Below, piece after piece: positions 12,458 through 32,619 of a DNA stretch of 64,000 nt. Numbering within the stretch: position 1 is the first letter of the stretch; each line of letters begins with the position of its first letter. Position numbers and translations under genes: made by a program. The notes beneath the pieces were generated by a model. It saw only the letters and a list, made by a program, of their open reading frames with translations, ran no database searches and was not told where the DNA came from. The stretch comes from Desulfobacteraceae bacterium (GTDB taxonomy: Bacteria > Desulfobacterota > Desulfobacteria > Desulfobacterales > Desulfosarcinaceae), in assembly GCA_013003715.1 (NCBI GenBank), contig JABDIN010000059.1:1-64000 (forward strand), in the 5' to 3' direction.

Positions 12458-13429
12458 TTAGTTCATTGATGAAGAATTGGGTCGCATTTGCGTACGCTCA
12501 AATTCAAAGGATAAGCGATAGGCCAAATCCACGAGTTCGGGGGACATGCCGGCATGCAGTCCGCAGCAGGTGCCGAATATATATCCGCCTTGACTACCAT
12601 CAGATGTCATTAACGCCTTCATCTCGCGATGCAGGTGACCACAGGTTATGTGCCTGTCACCAGATACGCGGCCTTGATCCAACAGAGACGGATCCAGGCC
12701 GCCCATCAAACAAAGGCTTTGATTGTAGCGCACTTTTATTTTTCCAATATCCATACCGGCGGCTGATTCGATGCATTGAAGACCAGCAAATCCGGCTGAG
12801 GCAATAGCTGGCAGAACCTTGTCGAGATTACCGTCTGAATGGAAAAATACCGGTACACCCAACTCTGCAGCCTTCATGGTTTGAATCTCCCAAAAGGGTT
12901 TTAAATACTGTTCGACCATACTAGGAGAGATGTAAGTTCCTTGGTTATAAGCGATGTCGTCGGCGATGATGATCCCATGAGCGCCGGCACACACACCCTG
13001 AATCATGGAGGACATAACCTGGTCGGACATGCGCTCCAATTCCTTAAAAAGCGCATCGGGTGATTCGGCGATTTCCCTAAAGACTGCCATCAACCCCAGG
13101 CGCTGCACGACTGTCTGGAACACACCGTCGACAATCCAGAAGACGAACAGGCCTTCATCAGAAAAGCGAGGGATGTCCTCCAGTAGCACCCGACACTCCG
13201 GTGCCTCTCCAAAGATCTTGTTTGACTGCAGACAAACAAGATCAAGCTTTAGGGCACGACAACATGCAATGAGTAAATCGGTATCGTTTCTCATATCCGG
13301 TTCGCAGCCGTTCGATTTCCAGGTTAAGAAGTTCTTTGCGAATTGGCGATCCAGAACGAATTCTCCTCTGGCAACAGACATTTGTCTGTCATGACCGATA
13401 GCCTGTTTTACGCGTTGGATTCCGTTCAT
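12458..13429 (-). CDS. Uroporphyrinogen decarboxylase-family corrinoid methyltransferase
   Basis: This 323-residue protein has the URO-D fold shared by MtaA/MtbA/CmuA-type methyltransferases, which move methyl groups between a corrinoid protein and CoM or tetrahydrofolate. Candidate zinc ligands are the His of VFFHSDGN, the Cys of QCIESA and the Cys pair of GTCCGLHAGM, in the H...C...C arrangement seen in methylcobamide methyltransferases. It is 6 bases downstream of the methyl-THF methyltransferase gene and ends the corrinoid operon. Because a THF methyltransferase is already present, it may act on a different methyl donor or acceptor. True haem biosynthetic HemE is unlikely from the divergent sequence and the context. 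Confidence 0.75.
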   Translation of the reverse strand: MNGIQRVKQAIGHDRQMSVARGEFVLDRQFAKNFLTWKSNGCEPDMRNDTDLLIACCRALKLDLVCLQSNKIFGEAPECRVLLEDIPRFSDEGLFVFWIVDGVFQTVVQRLGLMAVFREIAESPDALFKELERMSDQVMSSMIQGVCAGAHGIIIADDIAYNQGTYISPSMVEQYLKPFWEIQTMKAAELGVPVFFHSDGNLDKVLPAIASAGFAGLQCIESAAGMDIGKIKVRYNQSLCLMGGLDPSLLDQGRVSGDRHITCGHLHREMKALMTSDGSQGGYIFGTCCGLHAGMSPELVDLAYRLSFEFERTQMRPNSSSMN

Positions 13430-13435
13430 GGGTGC

Positions 13436-14233
13436 CTATCCTTCAAACAGGCCCTCTCGAAAGGCTTTAAGATAGTTCATGCAAAAGTCATCCCTGCCGG
13501 CAAGAGCCTCAGCAGCGATGATGCCGGCCATTAAGCGCCGATCCAGTGGATTGATGATGGCCCCATCCAGCCCTTTTGAAATGGCCATGGTCATGAATAT
13601 GTGATTCAGATATTTGCGTGCCGGCAGACCGTAAGAGATGTTTGATACACCGCAGGCTGTGTGGATCCCCGGATAGTTGTCCAGAATCTTTTCCATGGCG
13701 TCGATGAATGCCAGGCCGTATGAGTTGTTCACCGATAACGGCTGTACCAAGGGGTCGACGAAGATGTTCTCCACCTTGACGTTGTTGTTTAGCAGGCCGC
13801 CCACAAGTTTGTCGGCAATTCTTAAGCGGTCGTCCACGGTTTGGGGCATACCTTCGTCGCTCATGCACAGAGCGATAACCTTAAAATCCGTACCGGCGAC
13901 GAAGGGCAAGAGTCTATCAAACCGCTCCTTCTCCAGGCTGATTGAGTTGATCAGGGGCGTGCCCTGATGCACCATGACGGCCGCCTCGATGACGGCTGGA
14001 TTGGGGCTGTCTATGGCGCAGGGTTTGTCGGTAGCTGTTTGCACCATCCGCACCAGCCATTTGAGGTACTCAGGCTCCTGGTCCAAGAAGATGCCGGCGT
14101 TGACGTCCATATAATCCGCTCCGGCCCTGGCCTGATCTTGGGCCACTTTCTGAATGGCTGCGCTATCCTGAGATTCGATGGCCGCCTTGATTGCCTCGCG
14201 GCTGGCGTTAATCAGTTCACCGATGATAATCAT
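13436..14233 (-). CDS. Methyltetrahydrofolate:corrinoid methyltransferase (MtgA/AcsE-like)
   Basis: This 265-residue protein has the pterin-binding (DHPS-like) TIM barrel of methyl-THF corrinoid methyltransferases. It starts with MIIIGELINASREAI, has the pterin-site block DYMDVNAG and ends in the usual VSNISYGLPARKYLN region. In glycine-betaine-type systems this enzyme (MtgA) passes the methyl group from the corrinoid protein to tetrahydrofolate. The open frame reaches 14359 and would overlap the corrinoid gene, but family alignment fixes the ATG at 14233, 16 bases after the corrinoid gene stop. Confidence 0.88.
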   Translation of the reverse strand: MIIIGELINASREAIKAAIESQDSAAIQKVAQDQARAGADYMDVNAGIFLDQEPEYLKWLVRMVQTATDKPCAIDSPNPAVIEAAVMVHQGTPLINSISLEKERFDRLLPFVAGTDFKVIALCMSDEGMPQTVDDRLRIADKLVGGLLNNNVKVENIFVDPLVQPLSVNNSYGLAFIDAMEKILDNYPGIHTACGVSNISYGLPARKYLNHIFMTMAISKGLDGAIINPLDRRLMAGIIAAEALAGRDDFCMNYLKAFREGLFEG

Positions 14234-14249
14234 GAGACGTCCCTGCCTT

Positions 14250-14873
14250 TCAACCAACAAGTTCTTTGACGAGCTTGACGGTTCCAGGGGCATCAGCACT
14301 GTATCCGTCTGCCTCGATCTGGTGGGCAAAAGCCTGGCTGACCGGAGCACCACCAACAATAGTCTTTACTGCCAAATTAGCCGCTTTGGTTATCCTGATC
14401 GTTTGTTCCATGGCCGGCATGGTGGTCGTCAAAAGTGATGACAGAGCGATCACATCGGCTTTTTGCTCTGCAGCTGTTTTGACGAAGACCTCGCTTTCCA
14501 CATCCACTCCTAAGTCCACGATTTTAAAACCAGCACCCTCCAACATCATGGCAACCAGATTCTTGCCGATGTCATGCTGGTCGCCCTTGACTGTGCCGAT
14601 AACCACGGTGCCCTTGCTCCGGCTTTGATCGGTGGTCAGCAGTGGTTTAATAAGCTCCAGTCCGGCCTTCATGACCTGGGCGGACTTGAGCATCTCCGGG
14701 ATGAAGAGGTCCCCGGCACTAAACCTTTCTCCAACTATGTCCATGGCTCTGACCAACCCGTCGTCCAGGATGGTCTGGATGTCTGTTCCAGCGCCCAATT
14801 CCGCCCGGACCTTTGCCTTCACCGAGACTTCATCAAATGCCAGTATTGCATTGTAAATCTCCTGTGTGCTCAT
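14250..14873 (-). CDS. Corrinoid (B12-binding) methyl carrier protein, MtgC/MttC-like
   Basis: This 207-residue protein has an N-terminal helical cap (about 1-85) and a Rossmann B12-binding domain. The lower-ligand motif DxHxxG is seen as GDQHDIGKN with His100. It carries the methyl group as methylcob(III)amide between the MttB-family methyltransferase and the methyl-THF methyltransferase encoded on either side of it. No RamA-type reductive activase is encoded within the window, so reactivation must be supplied from elsewhere. Confidence 0.92.
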   Translation of the reverse strand: MSTQEIYNAILAFDEVSVKAKVRAELGAGTDIQTILDDGLVRAMDIVGERFSAGDLFIPEMLKSAQVMKAGLELIKPLLTTDQSRSKGTVVIGTVKGDQHDIGKNLVAMMLEGAGFKIVDLGVDVESEVFVKTAAEQKADVIALSSLLTTTMPAMEQTIRITKAANLAVKTIVGGAPVSQAFAHQIEADGYSADAPGTVKLVKELVG

Positions 14874-14961
14874 TTCTTTGTCTCCTGTTAAGAAATCATC
14901 TGTCGATGATTTGGATTCAACGTTTGTAAGTAAAGCTTCCTAAAATTATAGAACACCTACA

Positions 14962-16434
14962 TCAGATGCGTTGATAAGTTTTATGTGCAAGGATTGCTTC
15001 GATTCCCTTCAGGACGGCTTCAGACTTAGGCGTTACCTGGTGTTGGACCAAAATCTTTCGGGCCTTTTCGGTGCAGCGCTGCTGCATTTCTTTGGCCCCA
15101 TTTTCATGCCATAGCTCAAACCGGCTTCGATCGGCCAGTTTGGGATGAAACAGATCCGTCTTAAAGTGTTTGAATGTATGTTCGTCGTTGAGGAAGATAG
15201 CGCCCTTGCCCACGTTACGCGCTACACGGTCGATCACATCCAACGCCAGAGTGTCCTCGTCAACACGCAACCCATCCACAAAATAACGGCTCATCGCTAC
15301 CAATTCATCCGCCAGGGTCACCATCTCCAGCGAGGAGGTATGCCCCGATTCGATATAGCCCACATCATGGATAAAGTTGCAGCGGGAAAGCATAGCCGTG
15401 ATGATGGAGAGCATCCCTTCGGCACCTGCCTGGGCGTCCACTGTTTTGGCGTCCGTTGCACCGGCAAAGGACCAGACGGGCAGTTTGTAGATCATGTCGC
15501 GCATATCGGCCAGGGCTGCCTGGGTCAGGCTCCATTCGGTGCATCCGTATGAGACCACCGTATGGCGCATGTCCAGAACACTAACATTAGGAGCAAAGAG
15601 AAACGGTGCACCTGCGTTGGTCAGCTGGTGGATGGTGAGCCCCACCAGATTTTCGGCAAGTCCTAAAGCCATGGCTCCAGCCAGGGTGCTCGGGCCTCCG
15701 CCGCCGGCATTACAACCCGAAGGCAGGCAGATGGGAATACGTTTGCGGGCGCAGAACACTAACTTTTCCATGACATTGATTGGAAAGCGCAGCGGGCTAA
15801 TGGCCTCCGAATAGTTGAGGATGAAAGGCCTTCGAGCCAAGGCATCTTCACCCCCAGCCACCAGACAGGCAATCTCATGGATTTTGGCAATATCTTTGCC
15901 GCTATCAGCAATAAAACAGATAGGCTTGTTGCCGTTCTGCACCATTGCGGCGAAGACGTGGACGTAGATTTCCTCAATAGGAGCGTCTTCGGGGTTCCCC
16001 ATGGACATGGAAAAATCGATGTTTTCCAGACCGTCCACCAACTTGGCAAAGTTGCCCGAATCCTGCAATACAGTGCGTCGGCGCTCACCAGTCTCCAGGT
16101 CGATGGTAAAGATGGTATCCGAACCGGTGCCGAAGTAAAAATTGTCGTCCACCAGAGACATGGCCCGCCGACCCTGCTGGTCGTATAGGGCGATCTGTCT
16201 GGGTGCTGATTTTAAGGCTGCATCAGCCAGACGCGCCGGCATCAACACGCGGTCCTCCTGGTCAGTACGGCAGCCAGCCTCCAGCAGCATGCGGCGGGTC
16301 GGCTCATGTTCCATGATGAATCCGGTGTTTTCAAGAATTTCAAGGGCGGCATGGTGGATGGCCCAGGCCTGTTCTTCGTTCAGTACACGCATTCGCGGAC
16401 GAAATGTATTGATTGCGGGTTGCTTCAAAATCAA
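14962..16434 (-). CDS. MttB-superfamily (non-pyrrolysine) quaternary amine methyltransferase
   Basis: This 490-residue TIM-barrel protein belongs to the trimethylamine methyltransferase (MttB) superfamily. It has the usual N-terminus (RMRVLNEEQAWAIHHAALEILENTG) and the blocks LPSGCNAGGGGPSTLAG and SFAGATDAKTVDAQAG. The frame is uninterrupted with no in-frame amber codon, so it is a non-pyrrolysine member like MtgB (glycine betaine), MtpB (proline betaine) or MtcB (carnitine). It would demethylate a quaternary amine onto the adjacent corrinoid protein. The exact substrate cannot be read from sequence. Confidence 0.88.
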   Translation of the reverse strand: MILKQPAINTFRPRMRVLNEEQAWAIHHAALEILENTGFIMEHEPTRRMLLEAGCRTDQEDRVLMPARLADAALKSAPRQIALYDQQGRRAMSLVDDNFYFGTGSDTIFTIDLETGERRRTVLQDSGNFAKLVDGLENIDFSMSMGNPEDAPIEEIYVHVFAAMVQNGNKPICFIADSGKDIAKIHEIACLVAGGEDALARRPFILNYSEAISPLRFPINVMEKLVFCARKRIPICLPSGCNAGGGGPSTLAGAMALGLAENLVGLTIHQLTNAGAPFLFAPNVSVLDMRHTVVSYGCTEWSLTQAALADMRDMIYKLPVWSFAGATDAKTVDAQAGAEGMLSIITAMLSRCNFIHDVGYIESGHTSSLEMVTLADELVAMSRYFVDGLRVDEDTLALDVIDRVARNVGKGAIFLNDEHTFKHFKTDLFHPKLADRSRFELWHENGAKEMQQRCTEKARKILVQHQVTPKSEAVLKGIEAILAHKTYQRI

Positions 16435-19364: not shown

Positions 19365-22300
19365 TCAATGAGACGGGGATTCAAGTGGTGGCGCTTGCCA
19401 CACGGCTGCCATCGCAACCCCCACAGCGTTGAGGACTATCGGCAGGTGCATATCCGCAATTGGTGAATGGCGCGGTGATCTCAGCACGAGCAGATTGTTA
19501 ATGGGGAAAGCATACAGGATTTTCTCTCCAATCTCATGAATTCGCTCTTCTTGCGTGATCACAATCAACCGCGGTACCCGGCTGCCGAGAAGGGCCAGTT
19601 CATCGAGCATGAGCGGCAGGCTGCGTTCGCCGGTCATATCGAGAATGATCAAATTATCACGGCGGGTATCGTATTCCGGCTGCAGCTCAGGTAAATACCA
19701 TTTATTGTCGGCATAAAAGGGGACCTGAGTTCTCATCGGTAGCTTTTCCGGTGGCCGCGCCAGAAAATCATCAATACTGCGGCCGTCCAGATAGTGTGCC
19801 TCCCAGCGGCCAACAGCAGCGCTGCCATAGCGCGCTGTTAAGCCGTCACGTTTTTCCAAGGCCACATATTTATCGATAGCCGTGCTATCGACGGTCACAA
19901 TCGGGCCATGGTTGGAATGACCGGGAACGTGATGGACCAATGTCAATCGGCCTGAGCCATCGAATTGATCTTCCCATACACGCCCACTACTGGCAAAGGG
20001 GCTGATGAAAAAGGCCGTACGGTATCTGACATTGGCAGATGCTATCTTGCGTAATCTGGATAAGAGATCGGCATCATCCATAATAGCGGTGATGGCTTCA
20101 GTTGCATCGGAAATGTGGCGCTGGGCGATGGCCGCTTTTCGCGGTGCCTGATTAGACCAGGCTTTTGCTATGATTAGATTCAATCCGACATACAATCGTG
20201 CCGCCGGGCATTGGCCGTCTACTGACGGCAGAATGAAGCGTCCTGCAGTTGTCATTCTATCGTCGAACCATGACGGTGGCGTCGGCCCAAGCCATGCCAA
20301 CTTGTGGTTATTATCGACTGAAGGCAACGCCATACGGCCTTGCTTGCAGTCGGTGGTTGCCGTTGCCGCGACCAGTACAATGGTGTCATCAGTGATATGA
20401 TGGGGCCACTCTCCAGCCGACAACACCCGTATCGGCAGGTTAATCAGTCGGCGCCAGATGGTCACTACATCCTTGACAACTCCGTAGGCTTCCGCATTCA
20501 GGGACACCATCGTCACATCGTTGATTTTGGAGCGTGGATCGAAGAGCAGAAACCCCAGTTGTCTCAGATCAGCTTGGGCATATACTCCCATGGCTGTTAG
20601 AGGATCATCCGCGCATAAATTTTTCGCCAACCGACGAAACTCTTCAAGCGTCTTCACCGGTACAGGCTCGTATAATGCGTCTTCCCATGGAATACCAGCT
20701 TGTTTTGCCTCGCTGGTATTGGCCGCCGGTCGAATCGGTGAAACGGCTGATAGCTGTTTGAGTTCAGCGGTTGGCGACTTAAGAACTTTTGGCCGTGACC
20801 GGGTAACGGTCGATGATTTAGCCCGGTTGCGGGGTACTACACCGGGTCCATGACCGCAGGCGATGCTGAAATCGAGGGCCAGGCGGTAGTAAAAAGCAAG
20901 ATCAATATAGGGTTGGCTTCTGTCATCTGCCCATGGCAGGATTAGACAACGTTTGCCGCACAGCTGGTCGATCATTTTACGGTTTCGGTTCGGACAAGTA
21001 ATCGCAACAAAATCGACACCGGCTGCGGCAAATTTTTGCATAACGGCGACAGCTGCATCGATATGAGCGCGGCAGGTGGCATGGACGAGGACAAATCGGC
21101 CCGCAGACCACCGGCCCGGATCGCTATTGAGAATATCGTCGTAAGAATACCATTTACCAACAGCATACCATCCTGACTCCTCAAGTTTGAGGGCTGCGTC
21201 ATTACCAGTGCCGGCTGCCGCTGAATCACCTACAACCACAACGGCATCGGCCTTGGCCATGTCTGCTGAAGTCTGTTTGGAAAACGCGATGACATCCGCA
21301 TCATCATTGAGCTGTTGAATCCGATCGGCCAAGTCATTAACATATTTGAAAACTTTTTCAAAACAGGCCACCAGGCCTTTTCGGGTGCAAATCCAAGCAC
21401 CCAGCAAATTGACACACAGCAGCATGCAAAGGGTGCTTTTCACACCGGCGATGGTGACCTCTTCTCCACTATAGATGGACATCACTCCGCCCGATTTTTC
21501 CACGGTTAGGGCCATATCGGCATAGCGCTTTTCCGTGATGCCGATCATGAGGATGTTATTGGCGTATAGCTGCTGGGCCAGTTGGACCATTTCGGCAGTG
21601 GTGGATGACCAGCTCAACATGATAACCAGATCCTGCTGAGACTGGAACTCCCGCTTGGGGTTTTCGATGTCACCAGGGCACATGACGTCAATGGCAATCT
21701 CGGGCATCAAATCCCTTAGTAAGTGACTGGCGATGGTGGCCATATTAAAGGCGCTGCCCGCGCCGATGAGGATCAACCGCTGCAGTCCTTCCAGGCGACG
21801 ATTGAAGCGGCGGCGTAGGGTACGGATTTTAAGATCGATGGTCGGGCTGGCGCCGGTCGTGTCCGGGTTGTAGTTATTGAGAATATAGCGGAATCGATCC
21901 GGTACTTCCCGCAGATGGGATTCGTGAAACGATTTGTCCACATCTTTGCGTACGGTCACCGGATTAAGGTGCGTTTTAAACGGTTCTAATTCCGGAAGTG
22001 CGTGGCCGCTAAAATCACTGATGGATACTGCCCGGCTTACGGTTCCGGATTCAAGTCCGGTTTCGATAAGGGCAAAAATTTCCTCGCCGTCAAGGGCATG
22101 GACTTCTACGGCAAAGGATTTCAGCAACTTTTCCCGCTCCTTATCAAAGGCGCTGGCACAGCTGTGAAGAATTTCCCGATCTCCGCCTTCTCCCTCCATT
22201 TGGGCGACAGCCGCGGCTCGGCGTTCTTTCAGTTTCTCCAATGCATTGATCGTCCTTTCCACCAGCACCTGTGGAAAGAGGCCTAAGGCGGCATTGATGT

Positions 22301-23915
22301 CGGACACAACCATGAAATCGTCGTTATCCAGTCGGCGTACGATGAAAACCGGCCGGTTGTGACTCGCCACATAGAGCCTTCGTGATGAAACCAGACTGAT
22401 CCCGACAACTGCGATCTGACCGCCATCGCGGACAATCTGCCGCGCGGCGGCGATAAACGCCATGCGGTCCAGCTCAGCCGCTGTGCGGCCGATCACCCGG
22501 TGGTAAACGTTGAAATCGATGGACTGACTGCCAATGGCAATATCGGCCATATCTTTTTTCACCTGTTCTCGTATCAGGTCGCTGCGACGTTGTTCACCAT
22601 GTAGCTGGTCATAAAAGTGTCCCCATAAAAAAGCGGCATATTCAGCGGAATTGTTGCTTCGTAAACGATACCCTCCCACTGATTCAAGAAAAGTGCGCAA
22701 GCGGGCCTCGACACGACTGTCAAACTGCCCGTTCAAAACAAGGGCCCGCTGGCGGTGTGCATCCATCAGGGGGTGTGCGTTTTTTTCGGTGACACCCGAT
22801 TGCATTGCCCACCGTCCGTGGGCAATGATGGGCGTGACCAGATATCGCAGAAACATCGGATCGGTCCTGCCGGGCACCACAGAATCGGCTGTCATCATCC
22901 CTTTGCGCGAAATATCCGCAGTCACTGCCGGGAAAAATATCTCGCGCTGAAGATATGTGAGGCCCGCCGCTCCTGCCCAGCCATAGACGTTCAACACCTT
23001 TTCAGTCGCATACAGGGTGCGCCAGTTGACCGGATGCGGGCGTTGAGCTGGCAGCCACATCGTGTCCAGCACGCGGTTCAATTCCTCGGCCATAGTTGGA
23101 TCAGTAGCCAATCGGCTCAGTAAAGCGGCATCCAGCAGACGAAATAAGCAGCAAACTCCGTCTCGGTTGTAGTCATCGGGGATGCGAATGACGGTTTCGT
23201 TCAGGCACTGCCAAAGCTGCTTACGGGCGTTGGGCAGTTTGGGCATGGGGCGAAACTTTGGGCGGCGCAACTTTTTAACTCTGGCGCCGGTGCGTGTGGC
23301 CTCAAACAAATCATCAAACGAAGCAATAATGTCGGCATCGGATGCACTGACCGCACCGGATTGGCGGCGACGCGCAATGGTCTCCACCAATGCGCTACGA
23401 ATCAGGGTATGGATTGCCAATGGTGACAGATCAAACGAAGCAATCAGCAATCGGATCAGACGAGAGAAACCTTTTCGCGACTGAATGCGGTATTCGGATT
23501 GAAATTGGGGTTGACCCTTACAACCCGGAACTAGACGCGCCGGTTGTTCGGCCACCAAATCGACCAGAGCGTCAAAATCTGGAGCCTCGGCATGGGGATC
23601 GTGGGACTGGAGATCGAAACCTTCAAACATAAGCAAAGATTGCTGCCGGCTTTGTAAATCATAGGAAGTCGAATCCACTGATAGCATATGATACAAAACA
23701 GGGTCAGGGTGCGGGTAGACCATCTTGGTTTGGAGCACATTGAGCAGTTGCTCCACCGAGCCCAGTGATTTGCGCAATCGGATAGGTTCGTGATCGTCCC
23801 CAAAAAGCCCGATGCCGGTGCTGTCCGGTGCACGATAAATAATAGAGGACATTCCCGATAAAACTCGGGTGATATTGTTACCCGCCCCTCCAAAATACGC
23901 TACAATCCCGCACAT
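19365..23915 (-). CDS. Giant GlmS-superfamily protein: split class II glutamine amidotransferase, two SIS domains and an unknown C-terminal domain
   Basis: This 1,516-residue protein is about 2.5 times the length of glucosamine-6-phosphate synthase. MCGIVAYFGG and YRAPDSTGIG (1-35) begin an Ntn-type amidotransferase with Cys2. After about residue 60 a roughly 300-residue insert interrupts the domain, which resumes at 363 (IAHGRWAMQSG, then LNGQFDSR). SIS domain 1 spans about 710-850 and SIS domain 2 about 885-1020. The GlmS-like tail PRNRAKSSTVT keeps the catalytic lysine (K1033). Compared with GlmS, the SQSGET phosphate loop reads SWSSTT, and the positions of isomerase residues E488 and H504 appear to be Gly and Asp. 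Residues 1041-1516 match nothing I recognise. It follows the MmgE/PrpD gene by 24 bases. Ordinary GlmS function is unlikely. Confidence 0.8.
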   Translation of the reverse strand: MCGIVAYFGGAGNNITRVLSGMSSIIYRAPDSTGIGLFGDDHEPIRLRKSLGSVEQLLNVLQTKMVYPHPDPVLYHMLSVDSTSYDLQSRQQSLLMFEGFDLQSHDPHAEAPDFDALVDLVAEQPARLVPGCKGQPQFQSEYRIQSRKGFSRLIRLLIASFDLSPLAIHTLIRSALVETIARRRQSGAVSASDADIIASFDDLFEATRTGARVKKLRRPKFRPMPKLPNARKQLWQCLNETVIRIPDDYNRDGVCCLFRLLDAALLSRLATDPTMAEELNRVLDTMWLPAQRPHPVNWRTLYATEKVLNVYGWAGAAGLTYLQREIFFPAVTADISRKGMMTADSVVPGRTDPMFLRYLVTPIIAHGRWAMQSGVTEKNAHPLMDAHRQRALVLNGQFDSRVEARLRTFLESVGGYRLRSNNSAEYAAFLWGHFYDQLHGEQRRSDLIREQVKKDMADIAIGSQSIDFNVYHRVIGRTAAELDRMAFIAAARQIVRDGGQIAVVGISLVSSRRLYVASHNRPVFIVRRLDNDDFMVVSDINAALGLFPQVLVERTINALEKLKERRAAAVAQMEGEGGDREILHSCASAFDKEREKLLKSFAVEVHALDGEEIFALIETGLESGTVSRAVSISDFSGHALPELEPFKTHLNPVTVRKDVDKSFHESHLREVPDRFRYILNNYNPDTTGASPTIDLKIRTLRRRFNRRLEGLQRLILIGAGSAFNMATIASHLLRDLMPEIAIDVMCPGDIENPKREFQSQQDLVIMLSWSSTTAEMVQLAQQLYANNILMIGITEKRYADMALTVEKSGGVMSIYSGEEVTIAGVKSTLCMLLCVNLLGAWICTRKGLVACFEKVFKYVNDLADRIQQLNDDADVIAFSKQTSADMAKADAVVVVGDSAAAGTGNDAALKLEESGWYAVGKWYSYDDILNSDPGRWSAGRFVLVHATCRAHIDAAVAVMQKFAAAGVDFVAITCPNRNRKMIDQLCGKRCLILPWADDRSQPYIDLAFYYRLALDFSIACGHGPGVVPRNRAKSSTVTRSRPKVLKSPTAELKQLSAVSPIRPAANTSEAKQAGIPWEDALYEPVPVKTLEEFRRLAKNLCADDPLTAMGVYAQADLRQLGFLLFDPRSKINDVTMVSLNAEAYGVVKDVVTIWRRLINLPIRVLSAGEWPHHITDDTIVLVAATATTDCKQGRMALPSVDNNHKLAWLGPTPPSWFDDRMTTAGRFILPSVDGQCPAARLYVGLNLIIAKAWSNQAPRKAAIAQRHISDATEAITAIMDDADLLSRLRKIASANVRYRTAFFISPFASSGRVWEDQFDGSGRLTLVHHVPGHSNHGPIVTVDSTAIDKYVALEKRDGLTARYGSAAVGRWEAHYLDGRSIDDFLARPPEKLPMRTQVPFYADNKWYLPELQPEYDTRRDNLIILDMTGERSLPLMLDELALLGSRVPRLIVITQEERIHEIGEKILYAFPINNLLVLRSPRHSPIADMHLPIVLNAVGVAMAAVWQAPPLESPSH

Positions 23916-23939: not shown

Positions 23940-25274
23940 CTACGTTGTATCCATGACGCAGGCCTGGATTAGCATGCCGACGTGACGCTGCTGATCTAAT
24001 GACCAGACCATGTTTACCAGCGAATCGCCGGTAGCATCACCAAGCACAGGGCCGACAAGCCACCGGAATTTTGCTTCCAGTTCTTCATCCGTGGGTACAC
24101 TGGCAGGCGGTTCCCAACGTGGCTCAACGCGCCCTGAGTTAAAGATCTCACCCCATGTGGTCTCGATCACAACTTGGGCATAGGTTTTAGCTGGAAAGGC
24201 AGCTTCATAATCATGCTTCACTTCAGTTGTAATTCTAGCTACCAGTTCCAGGAGGTTTTTATTAAATATTCTTGGAGGCAGCACCTGGTGCGGGCCTACC
24301 TCTCCATCGACGAGGGCCGCCGCGACGGGATAGGCAATGTTGTACTGGGCCTCTTCGGTATTGGCCGGTGCACGAGTGCTCAAAGCACAGGCCGCGTGGA
24401 AGCTTCGAACGCGGATGGCCTTAATGTCTGAAGCCTTGAGATCATGCGCTGCTTTAATTTGCAGAGCGCCTTCTATGGCCGGCTGGGCCCAGCGGCAAGC
24501 TGCATAGGGCTTGAAGTATAGATGGAAAATCTGCCAGTCCTGTCCGAGTTTCTCGACCCAGTAGGGATTCGGCGTGTCGGAAAACAGCGGTTCAATACCC
24601 GTAAATCCCTCACGGGCCATCAATACGGAGACCATGGCCACCATAGCGCCCCAGCCAATACTATCCTTGCCCATGGATGGTGTTTCAATCCCCTTCATCA
24701 TGGGGGCGATGGGGGCGTGGTACTCCGCCACCCCCATAGCATGCCGCAGGGTTTCAGCGTTTAAACCCATGATGCGACCGGCAGCTGCCGCGCCGGCGAT
24801 GGCTCCCCAGCTTCCAGATGAATGGTACGTTTCATAGGTTGCATGGCGGATCAAACCGGCTCGGATGCCGATCTCATATCCAATCAAAAGACCTGTCAGT
24901 AGCTGTTTACCGCTACACTGCGGTGTCAGTTCCGCTGCGGCCAATACCGGCGGTAGTGCGCAAGCCCCAGGGTGGCCCCTTACCAGTCGGTAGCCGTCGT
25001 CTATATCCAGGGCATTGCAGGAAAATCCGTTGGCCAGGGCAGCCCCGGTAATCGACACCTTGCGACCGTCGACGAGGATGGTCGCGTCTCTACCGCCATA
25101 TTGATCGGCGGCCAATTGGGCCATCATGCGGCCTACAGGCGTTTGGGTGCCGGCCAGCAGTGCACCCAGTGTATCCAAAAGACATCGTTTAGTCTGATGT
25201 TGCACTTCCGGGGGTAGGTCCTGCCAGTGGGTGCCCAAAGCAAAACCAATGGCATGGTCGGTCATTGAACCCAT
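23940..25274 (-). CDS. MmgE/PrpD family protein
   Basis: This 444-residue protein covers the full MmgE/PrpD family length, with the N-terminal helical block KRCLLDTLGALLAGTQTPVG, the motif DIDDGYRLVRGHPGA and SSGSWGAIAGAAAAG. Characterised members are 2-methylcitrate dehydratase and cis-aconitate decarboxylase; many others are of unknown function and act on small polycarboxylates. It lies between the GFA-family gene (18 bases) and the giant GlmS-like gene (24 bases). No other methylcitrate-cycle gene is present, so a dehydratase or isomerase step in amine-derived carbon catabolism is more likely than propionate metabolism. Start at 25274 or at the second Met, 25265. Confidence 0.85.
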   Translation of the reverse strand: MGSMTDHAIGFALGTHWQDLPPEVQHQTKRCLLDTLGALLAGTQTPVGRMMAQLAADQYGGRDATILVDGRKVSITGAALANGFSCNALDIDDGYRLVRGHPGACALPPVLAAAELTPQCSGKQLLTGLLIGYEIGIRAGLIRHATYETYHSSGSWGAIAGAAAAGRIMGLNAETLRHAMGVAEYHAPIAPMMKGIETPSMGKDSIGWGAMVAMVSVLMAREGFTGIEPLFSDTPNPYWVEKLGQDWQIFHLYFKPYAACRWAQPAIEGALQIKAAHDLKASDIKAIRVRSFHAACALSTRAPANTEEAQYNIAYPVAAALVDGEVGPHQVLPPRIFNKNLLELVARITTEVKHDYEAAFPAKTYAQVVIETTWGEIFNSGRVEPRWEPPASVPTDEELEAKFRWLVGPVLGDATGDSLVNMVWSLDQQRHVGMLIQACVMDTT

Positions 25275-25292: not shown

Positions 25293-25733
25293 TCACTCCG
25301 CTCGCGCGAAGCGCTCGTCGTGTTGAATCAATTTATCAGAAATGCTGTAGTAATCACCTTTTTGGGCAACCCAGACATGCCCGCGGGTCTCAAGGCCAGT
25401 TGGAGTATCCAATGCCCCGGCGGCAATAGAAATACGCGGTTTCCCCCGGGGATCCCAGAACAGGCTGGACCCGCACCGGCTGCAGAAACCACGATGTACG
25501 TTGGGGGTTTCATCGGTAGGGGAGTAAAACCATTTCAAGGTATGGGATTGGAGCAGGACAAGGTTTTTCCGATCCGTTGCAGTGTAGGCGCCCACATGAC
25601 CGTGAAAACGCCTGCATTTGCTGCAGTGGCAATTGATTACGTCCATCAACATGCCATGGATTTCGAACCGGACCGCTCCGCAGAGGCATCCGCCCGCTGC
25701 GAGGGGTCTCGGCTCCTTGGAAGAAGCATTCAC
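25293..25733 (-). CDS. GFA-family (Mss4-like) zinc protein
   Basis: This 146-residue protein has the GFA fold with zinc-binding cysteines C16/C18, C35/C37/C40 and C84/C87 in the motifs GCLCGA, CHCSKCR and CSRCG. The family was named for glutathione-dependent formaldehyde activation, but most members have no proven function. Its place in a demethylation gene train is suggestive of one-carbon (formaldehyde) handling; that is inference. It is 18 bases upstream of the MmgE/PrpD gene. A 145-base gap separates it from the betaine importer genes. Confidence 0.85.
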   Translation of the reverse strand: MNASSKEPRPLAAGGCLCGAVRFEIHGMLMDVINCHCSKCRRFHGHVGAYTATDRKNLVLLQSHTLKWFYSPTDETPNVHRGFCSRCGSSLFWDPRGKPRISIAAGALDTPTGLETRGHVWVAQKGDYYSISDKLIQHDERFARAE

Positions 25734-25878: not shown

Positions 25879-26775
25879 TTACTTCAATCCCTTTGCCTTT
25901 AAAAAGCCGTCAGCTACTTCGGTCACAGACTTTTTCTCCACATCGACTTGCGCGTTTAAAGCAGACATGGTCGCGTCGTCGATGAGACTGGACAATTTGT
26001 TCAGATGCTCAGCCAAGTCCGGATGTGCCTTCAAGGTCTCTTCCCGAACAGTCGGTGTTATGGCATATGCCGGAAAATAATTTTTAGTGTCCCTGAGCAC
26101 AACAAAATTGAATGCGGGGATCCGTCCGTCCGTCGCAAAGACGAGCCCCACATCGACATCACCATCTTTCAGTGCTTTATACACCAAACCGGTTTCCATA
26201 CGCTTTATATCCGAACGGGGGAACTCGAAGCCGTATTTTTTCTGGAGCGGCTTCAAACCGTCATCCCGCTTGTAGAACTCAATATTGCAACCCAGCGTTA
26301 ATTTGTCACCGGCATTAAGTTTTGCAGCGAGATCTTCCAGGGTTTTCAAGCCCTTTGACCCGGAATCGGCCTGGCGTACTGCCAGCGCATAGGTGTTGTT
26401 TGCAGAAGAGGCATTCAGCCACACAATACCGATACCGGCATCCTTGGCTTTCACTGCCTTATAGATCTCTTCTCCTGGTTGATTGGCAAATTTATTTTTA
26501 TGAAAAGTCAAAAATGCGGTTCCCGTATATTCCCAATACAGATCAACTTGCCTGTTTTCCAGTGCTTCACGTACCAGCGAGGTGCCCATGCCTGTTTTCA
26601 GCTCGACGTCGAAACCCTTGCTTGTCAGATATTGACCGGTGACCTCAGCCAATAAAAGCTGTTCGGTAAAGCCCTTTCCACCAACGACAATGGAAGCTGC
26701 CAACACCGTTTGCACCGAAAACATAGCGATGACTAAAATCACTCCAAAACTGATCATTTTAAATGTGTTTTTCAA
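25879..26775 (-). CDS. Glycine betaine/carnitine/choline-type ABC importer, substrate-binding protein
   Basis: The protein is 298 residues long and belongs to the OpuAC/OpuCC/ProX family (IVVGGKGFTEQLLLAEVTGQYL, YWEYTGTAF). An N-terminal signal peptide ending near VLAAS directs it to the periplasm; no lipobox is seen. Upstream sequence is open to 26838, but a strong ribosome-binding site (AAGGAGGAG) stands 6 bases before the TTG at 26775, which gives a normal signal peptide, so I choose TTG. It should capture a quaternary ammonium compound for the two permeases and the ATPase encoded just upstream. Confidence 0.9.
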   Translation of the reverse strand: MKNTFKMISFGVILVIAMFSVQTVLAASIVVGGKGFTEQLLLAEVTGQYLTSKGFDVELKTGMGTSLVREALENRQVDLYWEYTGTAFLTFHKNKFANQPGEEIYKAVKAKDAGIGIVWLNASSANNTYALAVRQADSGSKGLKTLEDLAAKLNAGDKLTLGCNIEFYKRDDGLKPLQKKYGFEFPRSDIKRMETGLVYKALKDGDVDVGLVFATDGRIPAFNFVVLRDTKNYFPAYAITPTVREETLKAHPDLAEHLNKLSSLIDDATMSALNAQVDVEKKSVTEVADGFLKAKGLK

Positions 26776-26824
26776 GGTCTTCTCCTCCTTAATAAAAGTT
26801 ATCCCCAATGATGCAACTTTGGGG

Positions 26825-27580
26825 TTATTCTTGCACAAACCGTTGCGGGTTTACTCCTTTGGGTAACAACCAAAACTGCAATTTCGACAATATAAAATCC
26901 GTGCCAATCGCCAATGCTGCCACTGATAAGGAACCGATCAGCAGGGAATTGAAATCATTCAGTTGAATTCCGGTAAAGATATACTCCCCCAGGCTATCGG
27001 CGGCGATCAGGGTGATTAATGGGCTGGTGCCGACATTCAATGCAAACCCGGTCCGAATACCTGCTGAAATGACATAGAGCGCATTGGGAAATTGCACTTT
27101 CCACAGAATTTGCTGCCCGGTCATACCCTGGCCGCTTGCCGCCTCGATCATATGTTCGGGGACTTCACTGATCCCCTGGTACGTATTTCTGACCACCGGT
27201 AATATGGTGACGGTGACCAGGCCGATAAAAGCCGATTTGAAACCAAGTCCGGTCAGGGTCATGATGATCGTCAGTATCGCCAGTGTCGGCACCGCCGAAA
27301 GAATATTGAAGCTTTGGGCAAACGCTTCGGCATAGCGCTTGAACCATGTACGCGTCATCAGGATACCGGCACAAATCCCCAGAAACGATGCTGTGAGGCC
27401 TGAGGCAAAGACAATAATCGTATTTTGCTTGAGCAAATAAATCCAGTCTTCGTATGTGTCCATGAACTCTTTAATCAAGCCGGACGATTCCGAAAAGACA
27501 CCAAACAAAAATGTCAGCGCCATCAGGCCATACATTAGCAAGGTCTTGCTTCGATTAATGATTTCTATGATGTAAGGCAT
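26825..27580 (-). CDS. Betaine-type ABC importer, permease
   Basis: This 251-residue inner-membrane permease belongs to the OpuCB/OpuCD (ProW) family, with about six membrane segments and the family block NTYQGISEVPEHMIEAASGQGMTG, the cytoplasmic loop that contacts the ATPase. It lies between the ATPase gene (9 bases upstream) and the binding-protein gene. Together with the permease at 28726-29388 it would form a heterodimeric channel. Confidence 0.9.
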   Translation of the reverse strand: MPYIIEIINRSKTLLMYGLMALTFLFGVFSESSGLIKEFMDTYEDWIYLLKQNTIIVFASGLTASFLGICAGILMTRTWFKRYAEAFAQSFNILSAVPTLAILTIIMTLTGLGFKSAFIGLVTVTILPVVRNTYQGISEVPEHMIEAASGQGMTGQQILWKVQFPNALYVISAGIRTGFALNVGTSPLITLIAADSLGEYIFTGIQLNDFNSLLIGSLSVAALAIGTDFILSKLQFWLLPKGVNPQRFVQE

Positions 27581-27589
27581 GAATCCATC

Positions 27590-28729
27590 CTATGTGATTC
27601 TGTCGCCTCGCTTGCGGGGAGCTTCTCCCAGAAGGCTGGCAATGATGTGCTGGGTGATGTAGCCTTTGTATGCACCGTCGTCGTCCACCACAGGCATCCA
27701 ATCGGTTGCATGGGAATACATTTGCGATACGGCATCATGAAGGTTGTCATTCTCATGGATTGTGCCGGGTAGCGGGTCGCTGTAGTCGCTGACGACGCCG
27801 CTCTGATCGCTATTAATTTCCTCCTTGGTAATGTAGCCCCGCGCCCGTCCACGTGGGCCGACCATTACTGCGATGTGTGCTTCACGGCTGCGCATTTTAT
27901 CGGCGACTTTACCCAGAGGGTCATCCGGATTGACCGCCATGCGGAAGGGTAATATCGCCTCGCTGACAGGGATGAGCTTTAGTCGCTTCAGGGCACGGTC
28001 CGATCCGACAAATTCCTTGACGAAATTGTTTGCCGGATTTGCGAGAATTTCATCCGGCGTGTCGCATTGCTCGAGGATGCCCTCACGAAAAATGGCAATT
28101 TGATCTCCCATTTTGACGGCTTCGTCGATGTCATGACTGACAAACAGGACCGTTTTGCCCAGTTCTGCATTCATTTTTAAAAATTCGTCCTGAATGACTT
28201 CGCGGTTGATTGGATCGATGGCCCCAAAAGGCTCGTCCATAAGCATTACCGGTGGATCAGCGGCCAATGCCCGGATGACGCCGATACGCTGTTGTTGCCC
28301 GCCGGAAAGTTCCCTTGGATAACGCTTTAGAAAGATGTTCGGGTCAAGATTGACCATCTCCATCAACTCACGGGCTTTTTTACGGCTTTGCTGCTTGTCC
28401 ATCTTTAATAAATCCGGTACCACGCAGATGTTCGCTTCGATGGTTAAATTCGGAAACAACCCGATCTGCTGGATCACGTAACCGATTTCGCGCCGCAAGG
28501 CGATGGGATCGATATTGTCCGTATCCTTGTTGTCTATGTAGATTTTTCCGGAGGTCTTCGGGATCAGTTTGTTGATCATTTTCAATGCCGTGGTTTTTCC
28601 GCAACCCGACGGCCCTAAAAAGATGCAGATTTCGCCTTTGCCGACTTCCATGGAAACATTGTTGGCGGCGATAACCGGCTCTTTTCCCGGCATCTCAAAA
28701 TGTTTGGTCAAATTTTCAAGCCGAATCAT
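27590..28729 (-). CDS. Betaine-type ABC importer, ATP-binding protein with CBS domains
   Basis: The 379-residue ATPase has Walker A GPSGCGKTT at 39-47, the signature LSGGQQQR near 145, Walker B VMLMDEPFGAID and a C-terminal pair of CBS domains (about 255-370). In OpuA/OpuC importers the CBS pair senses ionic strength or nucleotides and gates transport. Here the importer is embedded in catabolic genes, so nutrient uptake is at least as likely as osmoprotection. It overlaps the upstream permease gene by four bases. Confidence 0.92.
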   Translation of the reverse strand: MIRLENLTKHFEMPGKEPVIAANNVSMEVGKGEICIFLGPSGCGKTTALKMINKLIPKTSGKIYIDNKDTDNIDPIALRREIGYVIQQIGLFPNLTIEANICVVPDLLKMDKQQSRKKARELMEMVNLDPNIFLKRYPRELSGGQQQRIGVIRALAADPPVMLMDEPFGAIDPINREVIQDEFLKMNAELGKTVLFVSHDIDEAVKMGDQIAIFREGILEQCDTPDEILANPANNFVKEFVGSDRALKRLKLIPVSEAILPFRMAVNPDDPLGKVADKMRSREAHIAVMVGPRGRARGYITKEEINSDQSGVVSDYSDPLPGTIHENDNLHDAVSQMYSHATDWMPVVDDDGAYKGYITQHIIASLLGEAPRKRGDRIT

Positions 28730-29388
28730 GACATCTCCCCGCTCAAACCTTTTGGTGTCAGCATTTTTTGGATAAACAAAAACAAATAGTCAGCTATGAT
28801 CGCCAAAAGCGAAACCGCCACCGCACCCACGATCAATTTGGTGCTGTTTGTGCCGGTGATTCCCTCGTTGATAATTGTCCCCAGACCACCCGCACCGATA
28901 TATACGGCAATCGTTGCAACGGCGATGTTCATGACCACAGCCATCCTGACACCGGCCATGATGACAGGGACTGCCAGCGGGATTTCAACTTTTGCCAATC
29001 GCTGCCAGTCGCTCATACCCATGCCTTTCGCTGCTTCACGAAGCGCAGGATCGATGTTGTTTATGGCAGTGTATGTATTGCGGATGATCGGAAGCTGTGA
29101 GTATAGGAAAATTGCGATGGCTGCCGGCCAGAACCCGATCCCCCGGTTGACCATCGACAGCAGGGGAATCATGAGACCAAACATCGCCACCGAAGGAATG
29201 GTGATAATCACCGAAGCGATGTATAAAATGGCATCCGCAAGCTTTTTATCTTTGGTGATAAGGACCCCAATGGGTACCCCTGTCAGGATGGCAACCCCCA
29301 CCGATATGCTCACCAGATAAAGATGCTCGATCGTCAGTTTAAAAATGGTCGGGTAATTGGTTCCAACGTAACGAATAATTTCTTCCAA
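28726..29388 (-). CDS. Betaine-type ABC importer, permease
   Basis: This 220-residue permease of the OpuCB/ProW family has the block NTYTAINNIDPALREAAKGMGMSDWQ, the ATPase-contacting loop. It is the first gene of the importer set. The order permease-ATPase-permease-binding protein is typical of OpuC-like systems split around the ATPase gene. The start ATG at 29388 gives a standard N-terminus. Confidence 0.9.
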   Translation of the reverse strand: MEEIIRYVGTNYPTIFKLTIEHLYLVSISVGVAILTGVPIGVLITKDKKLADAILYIASVIITIPSVAMFGLMIPLLSMVNRGIGFWPAAIAIFLYSQLPIIRNTYTAINNIDPALREAAKGMGMSDWQRLAKVEIPLAVPVIMAGVRMAVVMNIAVATIAVYIGAGGLGTIINEGITGTNSTKLIVGAVAVSLLAIIADYLFLFIQKMLTPKGLSGEMS

Positions 29389-29677: not shown

Positions 29678-30901
29678 CTACTTGTAAAAATAATGATCGA
29701 GATTGTGCAGGGTATGATCGTCCCGCATATAGTTGGGCCGGCTGCCATTGCGGGCAATGACTTCCACGCCGGCCTCATCGTACGGCTCAACGACATACTC
29801 GGCAGCCTGCTCTGCACCTGTTTCGAGACACAATTCGATATGGCGCTCCAGCTTGGCCAACGAGAAGGAAACCAGCTCCTTTAAAAAACCAAACACGTGT
29901 CTCATTTGGTGGAATCCGTGTTTTTTCAACAGTGCGTATCCGGCTGCCGCATCGGCCTCAGATTGCGGACCGGGTCTTTCTTCATTCGTGCCGCAGGCAC
30001 TCTGGATCGAGGGAAGATCAAGATCCTCGCATATTTTGTCCATCAGCAGGTTGGCCATGGTGTGAGCCATCAGCCCCATATCAACGGCATACTTCTTCTG
30101 AATGTTCGCGATAGAGGGCAAACCTGCGTGCACTACAGTGCACCCCGGATTGACCACCTGGGCCAGGGTGATGCCGAACAGGGCTTCGGCATGGGTGAGG
30201 GTCAGCAGGCCCGACATGGAGTATGGCGCGGACAAGCCGGCCATCGGCATGGTGGACAAATAAATCGGGATGCCCTGACGGACACAGGACAGAAACGGTG
30301 CGATTTGTCCCTCCATTATATTCAATGGACTGTTGATGATGGAGAACTGAACGGTGATGTTACCCCGGTTTTCATGGATCTGTTTGGCCCGTCTGATGCC
30401 GGCTTCAGTAACTGCGCCGACGTAAATCGGTTTCTGGCAATGGGCGATCATGGTATCCATAACCTCTACTTCCCTGTCCGGTACCAGAACCCCCCTGGCC
30501 ATAAAATTCACCGGTTCTGCCTGATCGACGATTTTTGCTATACTGGCGATGTCGGCCAAAGTAGGGGAGACTAATTCACCACTATCGTCATCGAAAACAA
30601 ACGGCGCTGTTCCGCCAACACCAAAGCTGTTGGCGGGAACCCAATAGTCTCTCCGCCCCGGTGTTGCGGCAAGAGCCTGATCAACCAGTGGTGTAAGTAC
30701 GTGAATGTGGCCCGTGGCATCATCATATGCCGCCAGACCGGTATCGGCCAGCAGTTCTTGTATTTCCTGCGAACCGCATAATACACCAACCTCTTCCAGA
30801 ATACGCAGTGCGTCCTGGTGAATCCGGGACAGCATGTTACAGGTTTGCTCGCCCCCGGGCACCCTTAATGGATCTTCGGCTTGTCGAAAAATTGTGTTCA
30901 T
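29678..30901 (-). CDS. Short MttB-superfamily methyltransferase homologue (copy 1)
   Basis: This protein of 407 residues belongs to the trimethylamine-methyltransferase (MttB) superfamily, but is about 80 residues shorter than the 490-residue member at 14962-16434. The barrel core is recognisable (FSIINSPLNIMEGQIAPFLS, MPMAGLSAPYSMSG, SIQSACGTNEE). No in-frame amber codon interrupts it. The ATG at 30901 is 14 bases after the stop of copy 2; a GTG at 30934 would overlap that gene. The two copies are clearly paralogous and may act as a pair. No corrinoid protein is encoded beside them, so they may share the carrier at 14250-14873. Confidence 0.8.
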   Translation of the reverse strand: MNTIFRQAEDPLRVPGGEQTCNMLSRIHQDALRILEEVGVLCGSQEIQELLADTGLAAYDDATGHIHVLTPLVDQALAATPGRRDYWVPANSFGVGGTAPFVFDDDSGELVSPTLADIASIAKIVDQAEPVNFMARGVLVPDREVEVMDTMIAHCQKPIYVGAVTEAGIRRAKQIHENRGNITVQFSIINSPLNIMEGQIAPFLSCVRQGIPIYLSTMPMAGLSAPYSMSGLLTLTHAEALFGITLAQVVNPGCTVVHAGLPSIANIQKKYAVDMGLMAHTMANLLMDKICEDLDLPSIQSACGTNEERPGPQSEADAAAGYALLKKHGFHQMRHVFGFLKELVSFSLAKLERHIELCLETGAEQAAEYVVEPYDEAGVEVIARNGSRPNYMRDDHTLHNLDHYFYK

Positions 30902-30915
30902 GGCTTCTGCCGTTA

Positions 30916-32130
30916 TCAATCCACGAAAACACACCCGATGTTGGCGGTGGTCAATGAGTCGTCCATATACATACCCAGGCCAACGCGCTGGATGGATTCC
31001 ATGCCCCGCTCATCATAGATCGGCATCTTCACATCAGGGGCCTCATCCGCAGTCACTTCTTCGGCAATGCGGATGGCGGCTTCCATTTTGGCGAAAGAAA
31101 AATCGACCAGATGCCGCAAAAAACCAAAACTGTGGCGCATCATATGAAAACCATACTTTTTACACAGCGCCTGTCCGGTACGGGCGTCATCCAGTGCGCG
31201 TTCGGTCGGGTGCTCTTCATTGGTGGTGCATCCGCTCTGGAATGTGGGAAGATCCAGTATCAAATTCAAATGGGCCTGCAGCAGGTTGAGCATAAAGTGG
31301 CTTTTCAGGCCGTAATTAGGATTATATTCGAAGCGCGGATCCGCGATGGTCGGAAAACCGGCATGGATGCATGTGTGTCCGGGCCGGAGGAGTTGAGCAG
31401 TGCAGATGCCGAACAGGACTTCCGCATGTGTCATGGCAAGTACGCCGTTGTAGCAATATGGCGCACTGATGCCGGCCATCGGCATGGCGGAGATGAATAC
31501 CGGCAGCCCGGCTCTGACCACCTGTACGAAATTATCCGAAAAATTTTCATTCACCTCCAAAGGGGGGCGCGTCAGGCAGAATACGATCATCTCTTTGCCG
31601 CGTTGCTGGTAGATCTGTTTGGCACGCTCAAGCGTGCGTTCAGATGTAACCGCATAGTAAAGCGGTTTGGTGCAGTTATCGACCATGACATCGATCTGGT
31701 CGACTTCATTCTTGAGTTTTAGGCCTCTTCCCATGCCTGCCACAACAGGATTGGCCTCTGCGATTTGAGCAATTCGTTTCACATGGTCCGGTGTCGGCAG
31801 CACGCCCCCAACACCGACGGCGTCATCATATACATACGGTGCCGTGCCGCCGACAAAAAAACTGTTTCGCGGAACGAAAAATTGCTCAATGCCAGGTACT
31901 TTTGCCAGACAATCCCTAACCAGCTCCGACATGATATACACACGATTGTCATAAACAATAGCTTTTCCATCCGCTTCAAATTGCCTGAAAACATCCAGCA
32001 TATCGGGCTGTTTGCAGCCAACACCCATGTTTTCAAGGATCCAGAGGGCATCATCATGGACTTTCATCAGCATGTCTACTGTCGCAGATCCCAATAATGT
32101 CCTGGATGTTTCCATCTGTACCAAATTCAT
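30916..32130 (-). CDS. Short MttB-superfamily methyltransferase homologue (copy 2)
   Basis: This 404-residue paralogue of the preceding entry has matching blocks: FVGGTAPYVYDDAVG, SAMPMAGISAPYCYNG and TFQSGCTTNEEHP. Both short copies conserve FxVGGTAPxVxDD, a different active-site neighbourhood from the 490-residue member, so they probably recognise another amine. It is the first gene of the leftward catabolic train, with a GAGG ribosome-binding site before the ATG, and faces the RpiR regulator across a 489-bp spacer. Confidence 0.8.
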   Translation of the reverse strand: MNLVQMETSRTLLGSATVDMLMKVHDDALWILENMGVGCKQPDMLDVFRQFEADGKAIVYDNRVYIMSELVRDCLAKVPGIEQFFVPRNSFFVGGTAPYVYDDAVGVGGVLPTPDHVKRIAQIAEANPVVAGMGRGLKLKNEVDQIDVMVDNCTKPLYYAVTSERTLERAKQIYQQRGKEMIVFCLTRPPLEVNENFSDNFVQVVRAGLPVFISAMPMAGISAPYCYNGVLAMTHAEVLFGICTAQLLRPGHTCIHAGFPTIADPRFEYNPNYGLKSHFMLNLLQAHLNLILDLPTFQSGCTTNEEHPTERALDDARTGQALCKKYGFHMMRHSFGFLRHLVDFSFAKMEAAIRIAEEVTADEAPDVKMPIYDERGMESIQRVGLGMYMDDSLTTANIGCVFVD

Positions 32131-32619
32131 TTGACCTCGCTTTTTTCTCGGAAATCGGGGCCTTCAAAGGTCTGAATGACATCCTTACATTGAGCCACTA
32201 TCTCATGGCACTGTGTGGATAACATGATCTTCGCCATTCAACGGGTTGTTGTTCTAAATAATGAATAATTTCATTTCATATGCAACGATTAATGTCAAAA
32301 TAAAAATGCAATCATCGGGCGATATTTCCGCCTAATTATTCTCATAGTAATTATTATGTGCTTTTATATTTGAATAATATGGATATCTATGCGGCAAAAC
32401 AATCCGATATATGGACACTATACTTTGATAGTTTTCGTTTCAATTTGATATTTATCGACAACAATTCATTGATTAAAGTATTTTTTAATGACATTGATAC
32501 AACAATTTGATTTAATACCCATCCAAATTAAAAGCGGATATGCTGATGGTAACGACACGTTTTCCGGTAAACCGCTTATATTATTACGATTTAATATATA
32601 TCGAGCAAACGGAGTGGAT
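32131..32619. promoter_or_regulatory. Divergent control region between the short mttB genes and rpiR
   Basis: This AT-rich region of 489 bp separates the leftward catabolic train from the rightward regulator. On the minus strand TTGACA occurs at 32295-32300, but the -10 region is poor. The motifs TTTCATTT (near 32272) and TTTCGTTTCAATTT (near 32437) recall GTTTCATTT in the soxB promoter spacer and the TTTCAA palindrome near the first rpiR gene. They are candidate RpiR binding sites. Nothing else was recognised. Confidence 0.35.

Follow-up and report, generated by a model that had tools for sequence, protein, structure and literature searches.

The locus studied here raises the question of what role a protein of 1,516 residues, derived from glucosamine-6-phosphate synthase (GlmS), may play among genes for the uptake and demethylation of quaternary amines. 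The gene lies in a window of 64,000 nucleotides (the whole stretch of DNA that was analysed) and occupies 19365-23915 on the minus strand, running from an ATG start to a terminal stop with zero frame breaks, and the open reading frame of the preliminary description is thereby confirmed as genuine and intact. Full-length relatives of about 1,500 aa were found in 44 of the 298 Desulfobacteria genomes searched (completeness at least 85%) and, in a phylum-wide sample, in 3 genomes outside this class; the identity of these homologues to the 1,516-aa protein is mostly 33-43%. Misassembly or a fused frame was ruled out by the equal length and layout across dozens of genomes, and the length, together with the insert and tail described below, is therefore a feature of the family and not an assembly error. 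A contig scan with a single protein as query returned one locus. No relative was found in the viral contigs searched, and neither this protein nor the enlarged GlmS discussed below turned up in literature searches. One homologue (L020, G223:C6) carries EEDVCSSDLS where EEVTISGLKS is conserved; VCSSDL resembles a translated Illumina adapter, and this assembly is probably contaminated at that point.

Searches with the single sequence pick up the middle of the protein alone (Pfam SIS at 713-801 and a sub-threshold GATase_6), and the scores fall far under the GlmS cut-offs of TIGR01135 (90.5 vs 418.05 bits) and NF001484 (108.2 vs 381 bits). Alignment to E. coli GlmS and profile matches gave the order amidotransferase (GATase) - SIS - SIS - PRNRAKS, as had been proposed from the sequence, and descent from GlmS is supported by profile-profile and Foldseek matches to GlmS/GFAT. 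The features of the protein are as follows.

19365..23915 (-): whole gene, GlmS-derived 1,516-aa protein (ORF and full-length homologues)
23730..23915 (-): GATase part 1, residues 1-62, with Cys2 and R28 of YRAPDSTG (hhalign to canonical GlmS GATase)
22854..23729 (-): GATase insert, residues ~63-354, present in every member (alignment)
21996..22853 (-): GATase part 2, residues 355-640, with R368, W369, Q372, H381, N395-G396 and S423 (alignment)
20796..21995 (-): SIS-A, first SIS-SIS module, residues 641-1040 (hhalign to GlmS; Foldseek)
21597..21614 (-): phosphate loop SWSSTT, S768-T773, equivalent to GlmS S347-T352 (alignment)
21177..21188 (-): K910-L-E-E913, equivalent to GlmS Lys485 and Glu488 (alignment)
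20814..20834 (-): PRNRAKS, residues 1028-1034, K1033 being equivalent to GlmS Lys603, the Schiff-base lysine (alignment)
19368..20795 (-): SIS-B, residues 1041-1516, read from profile-profile comparison as a degenerate second SIS-SIS module and interrupted by an insert of its own at ~1347-1392
19887..19922 (-): GHSNHGPIVTVD, residues 1332-1343 in SIS-B, aligned with GlmS GELKHGPLALID; H1336 is equivalent to GlmS His504 (alignment)

With its insert removed, the GATase matched the canonical GlmS GATase at E 1.2e-17 (hhalign). The proposed split of this domain by some 300 residues (64-360) was borne out, the insert measuring about 290 aa (residues ~63-354). The insert is conserved, yet profile, Pfam and PDB searches found no family and no PDB relative for it, nor did it resemble any other part of the same protein or the GATase insert found in the enlarged GlmS of ~1,250 aa. 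Among 29 full-length homologues, C2, R28, R368, N379, H381, N395, G396 and E425 are invariant, and both the N-terminal Cys nucleophile (C2) and the oxyanion Asn-Gly pair (N395-G396) are thus kept. The Cys2, RWA, NG and Lys1033 landmarks singled out earlier are likewise present and conserved in this set, with W changed to Y in two sequences. In GlmS, the glutamine site includes Arg73, Thr76, His77 and Asp123, and Asp123 touches the alpha-amino group of glutamine. Here the Arg is kept, Thr76 is replaced by M/V/L/I, His77 by Gln (Q372) and Asp123 by Ser (S423), and the losses of His77 and Asp123, both invariant in the family, were overlooked in the preliminary description. Because invariant Gln and Ser stand at these two positions, the protein probably uses a donor other than plain glutamine or binds its donor in a different way. 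The residue pattern is consistent with an active Ntn-type amidase whose donor specificity has changed; a GATase without Asp123 may also hydrolyse nothing.

SIS-A matched canonical GlmS at E 1.2e-28 (hhalign, profile-profile), and the top Foldseek matches of its predicted model were GlmS/GFAT isomerase domains (E 2.1e-13); against Pfam PF01380 it scored 25.5 bits, barely above the cut-off of 25. The alignment reproduced the reported change of the phosphate loop from SQSGET to SWSSTT, in which Ser347, Ser349 and Thr352 are retained as S768, S770 and T773 and Gln348 is replaced by Trp. The earlier claim that Glu488 had become Gly stems from a misalignment: EGALKLKEISY pairs gap-free with DAALKLEESGW, so Lys485 corresponds to K910 and Glu488 to E913, and Lys603 is represented by K1033. 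His504, by comparison, is indeed lost from its normal place, with no SIS-A counterpart in any family member.

The 470-residue C-terminus had been described as matching nothing, and profile-profile comparison instead showed a second SIS-SIS pair; a novel domain was ruled out by the comparison with SIS-A and GlmS. Residues 1041-1516 aligned with SIS-A over 281 co-linear columns and with the canonical GlmS SIS profile (33 sequences) over 241 columns (E 9.5e-6). Removal of the ~46-residue insert of SIS-B (1347-1392) gave 285 columns against SIS-A (E 2.9e-7) and 282 against canonical GlmS (E 4.5e-6). GlmS GELKHGPLALID has its aligned counterpart in a family motif, GESAHGPLVTVD, and the His of this motif is H1336 in the 1,516-aa protein. 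Each of 23 family rows contains a single copy of the 12-residue motif, and none of 432 neighbouring ORFs has it; the sole background match, L043, is itself a family member. When the HGP stretch was masked, SIS-B still matched SIS-A at E 1.3e-6 and GlmS at 3.9e-4, and a clade without HGP, compared alone, gave E 2.5e-4; the homology of SIS-B therefore does not rest on the motif. Of the controls, reversed profiles gave E values no better than 0.04, and profiles of unrelated neighbour families had no credible match.

Sequence searches of Pfam and the PDB alone would miss this identity. The Pfam search detected no SIS in the C-terminus, and the best match of the C-terminal profile among 177,635 PDB sequences was the GlmS isomerase domain, with HGPL in register, at an E value of only 0.28. 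Structures were predicted from alignments of two sequences each (the window protein and L013): in the model of both modules SIS-A was folded and SIS-B had a pLDDT of about 20-48, the SIS-B-only model had a mean pLDDT of 42, and this low-confidence module returned a SIS heptose isomerase as its top Foldseek match, at E 0.17 only. On the profile evidence we read residues 1041-1516 as a second, degenerate SIS-SIS module, the similarity being weak in each single comparison. SIS-B has neither phosphate loop nor lysine tail and has kept the His loop.

In the human enzyme GFAT-1, the sugar site is made from both isomerase domains, and His577* from the other monomer is catalytically relevant together with Lys558, Glu561 and Lys676, residues conserved from E. 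coli (PMC7000685); the catalytic residues of E. coli GlmS are Glu488, His504 and Lys603 (PMC9272926). The two modules of the present protein have complementary losses, in that SIS-A keeps everything except the His and SIS-B keeps the His loop only. Ten family rows (L028-L037), which form one clade with 100/100 support, carry N at K485, L/I/V at E488 and A/I/L/M at E481 and have no HGP, while all other rows retain Glu or Asp at 488 as well as the His. This co-loss is a single evolutionary event, and it strikes both modules together at residues of the predicted shared site. The complementary losses and the co-loss clade point, with moderate confidence, to a chain that forms a GlmS pseudo-dimer within itself and has a single isomerase site; with similar confidence, the L028-L037 clade appears to have since given up that site. 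An ancestral GlmS would have taken both isomerase halves of its dimer into one chain, laid out as one GATase with the ~290-aa insert, then SIS-A, then SIS-B. SIS-A would give the phosphate loop (S768, S770, T773) together with K910, E913 and the Schiff-base K1033, and SIS-B would give H1336, the His that the partner subunit provides in trans in GlmS/GFAT, and from these contributions each chain is predicted to have one complete isomerase site.

The GlmS complement of the genome bears on whether such a chain could still perform the ancestral reaction. A GlmS search at the curated cut-off yielded no passing match in the genome, so that the absence of a canonical glmS elsewhere, raised in the preliminary description, is literally true. 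It does not rescue a GlmS role for the 1,516-aa protein, however, because the genome encodes an enlarged GlmS of ~1,250 aa ('GlmS-L'; G000:C99:17427-21173, minus strand; L002/L108) that is present in 140 of 146 Desulfobacteria genomes. This paralogue is apparently the housekeeping GlmS, and since it is near-universal the 1,516-aa protein is an additional, accessory member; that the latter is the sole GlmS of the genome is unlikely. The two proteins share an enlarged, split GATase and a SIS pair, but the enlarged GlmS has a GATase insert that shows no similarity to the one here, keeps Asp123 as well as the Glu488 and His504 equivalents within one SIS pair, lacks the PRNxAKS (Lys603) tail and is near-universal where the 1,516-aa family is sporadic. 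In six members of that family, the longest ones (L009, L010, L019, L020, L039 and L040), the chain runs on for a further ~250-320 residues at the C-terminus, and this extension is similar to the C-terminal domain of the enlarged GlmS (E 2.8e-9).

In the class, where the enlarged form is near-universal, canonical glmS is absent; canonical GlmS was found in 67 of 78 genomes from other lineages of the phylum. The enlarged proteins (L083-L132) mostly carry a conserved stretch of ~50-70 aa before the catalytic Cys, e.g. VPxxSIVLFPCxxNxLCCGLAGI, which suggests a cleaved propeptide as in PurF, and a few begin directly at MCG.

A second GlmS, converting glutamine and fructose-6-phosphate to glucosamine-6-phosphate, perhaps for osmotic or envelope needs alongside osmolyte uptake, is accordingly an alternative that we consider unlikely. 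It agrees with the lack of a canonical GlmS in the genome and with all that the protein shares with GlmS/GFAT (TIGR01135): a GATase followed by tandem SIS, Cys2, the oxyanion NG, the phosphate-loop Ser/Ser/Thr, the Lys485/Glu488/Lys603 equivalents and the PRNxAKS tail, with the His504-loop motif placed in SIS-B. The protein differs from GlmS/GFAT in its length (1,516 vs ~609 aa), the ~290-aa GATase insert, the extra SIS pair behind the PRNxAKS tail, Gln348 replaced by Trp, His504 absent from SIS-A, a catabolic operon, and invariant Ser and Gln at Asp123 and His77. These last two changes, the score of 90.5 against 418 bits, the other enlarged GlmS that is near-universal in the class, the three genomes in which a 1,516-aa-type protein and canonical GlmS co-occur, and the clade in which the isomerase residues are gone argue against a second GlmS.

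The surroundings of the gene had been described as a betaine uptake and demethylation context, and Pfam agrees, with MmgE/PrpD, OpuAC, two permeases, an ATPase with CBS, three MttB proteins and a pterin methyltransferase.

23940..25274 (-): MmgE/PrpD-family gene, directly upstream of the 1,516-aa gene on the same strand, an adjacency that recurs (Pfam)
25293..25733 (-): GFA-family (formaldehyde-activating-like) protein (Pfam)
25879..29388 (-): OpuA-type quaternary-amine ABC transporter, comprising OpuAC, permease, ATPase with CBS and permease (Pfam)
29678..32130 (-): two short MttB-superfamily genes, 29678-30934 and 30916-32130 (Pfam)
13436..16434 (-): pterin-binding methyltransferase, corrinoid-protein-like ORF and third MttB, 14962-16434 (Pfam for the first and third); our reading of the middle ORF is a putative corrinoid protein

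The 5.5-Mb genome yielded three MttB genes, and all of them flank the 1,516-aa gene within 9 kb. The recurrence of homologues beside MttB/Opu genes, expected in the preliminary description, was seen among 38 homologous loci (two of these being one and the same contig, some ending at contig edges): MttB is a neighbour in 21, MmgE/PrpD in 16 (15 of them directly upstream on the same strand), the OpuA ATPase in 14 and OpuAC in 12. Some loci (e.g. L044, L048, L054 and L068) had no MttB/Opu neighbours, and some were wholly without this context. Of 146 sampled genomes, 20 have the 1,516-aa family and MttB occurs in 19 of these, vs 63 of the 126 without the family (Fisher p 1.3e-4, uncorrected for relatedness). 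MttB-superfamily loci such as those of MtgB (glycine betaine) and MtpB (proline betaine) have MttB, a corrinoid protein, a pterin methyltransferase and an Opu transporter in common with this one. A GlmS-like or MmgE/PrpD protein as partner of an MttB system was not found in literature searches and, to our knowledge, has not been described.

Three further observations concern the neighbourhood. A UroD/MtbA-like methyltransferase ORF (window 12458-13429, minus strand) lies beside the pterin methyltransferase and corrinoid protein. The GFA-family protein stands between MttB/Opu and MmgE/PrpD both in the window (25293-25733) and in L013 (8187-8630). A SIS-domain regulator of RpiR type, named from sequence, occurs near the locus in the window (32488-33495, plus strand) and in seven other loci, hinting at phosphosugar sensing.

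The gene would thus serve a locus for quaternary-amine uptake and corrinoid demethylation and, since this is what the locus encodes, the amine and the product would probably belong to that pathway. We place the pseudo-dimer architecture and the link to the quaternary-amine pathway, taken jointly, at a probability of roughly 0.6. As to the reaction, a new ammonia- or amine-transfer activity is possible. The Cys2 GATase would act on an amide donor to free ammonia or a small amine, which would pass to SIS-A/SIS-B and there join a keto-sugar phosphate, or a carbonyl phosphate of similar kind, on K1033; E913 and H1336 would then isomerise the adduct. The protein might represent a new enzyme class, in which the pseudo-dimer joins a non-ammonia amine (e.g. 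a methylated one from betaine) to a sugar phosphate, or frees it from one, with a non-glutamine amide donor, as a novel step in anaerobic quaternary-amine catabolism. We offer this as a tentative proposal that may well prove wrong, and we regard the specific chemistry of the main reading as doubtful in the same degree.

The reverse reaction, by which a deglycase or C-N lyase (cf. FrlB-type SIS) frees the amine from a phosphorylated amine-sugar conjugate and feeds demethylation, would suit the catabolic neighbourhood, the RpiR-type SIS regulators that recur nearby, the retained Schiff-base lysine and phosphate loop and the changed glutamine-site aspartate. The single-chain double-SIS isomerases/deglycases AgaS, FrlB and NagB-II share the tandem SIS fold and the phosphate loop, but have no GATase and a single SIS pair. 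A pure deglycase would have no need of Cys2 or of the amidotransferase oxyanion residues, all of them invariant here, and Amadori chemistry requires a primary or secondary amine, betaine being neither; we regard this alternative as improbable. A catalytically silent descendant, sensing phosphosugar or amine and regulating or scaffolding the demethylation enzymes, could explain the several altered ancestral catalytic positions and the clade in which all isomerase acid/base residues have gone from both modules while gene and linkage persist, but has little likelihood with Cys2, R368, N395-G396 and K1033 invariant over 29 divergent sequences, that clade included.

GlmS is a textbook enzyme in which each of two isomerase sites is built from both subunits. 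In the pseudo-dimer reading the contribution of the partner has apparently been fused, the second copy is decaying and one clade is without the site, and the family would offer a natural experiment on the need for GlmS dimerisation. The linkage to MttB, Opu and MmgE/PrpD genes points to an undescribed step in the pathway by which betaine-type osmolytes, a substrate pool of importance in marine sediments, are broken down anaerobically.
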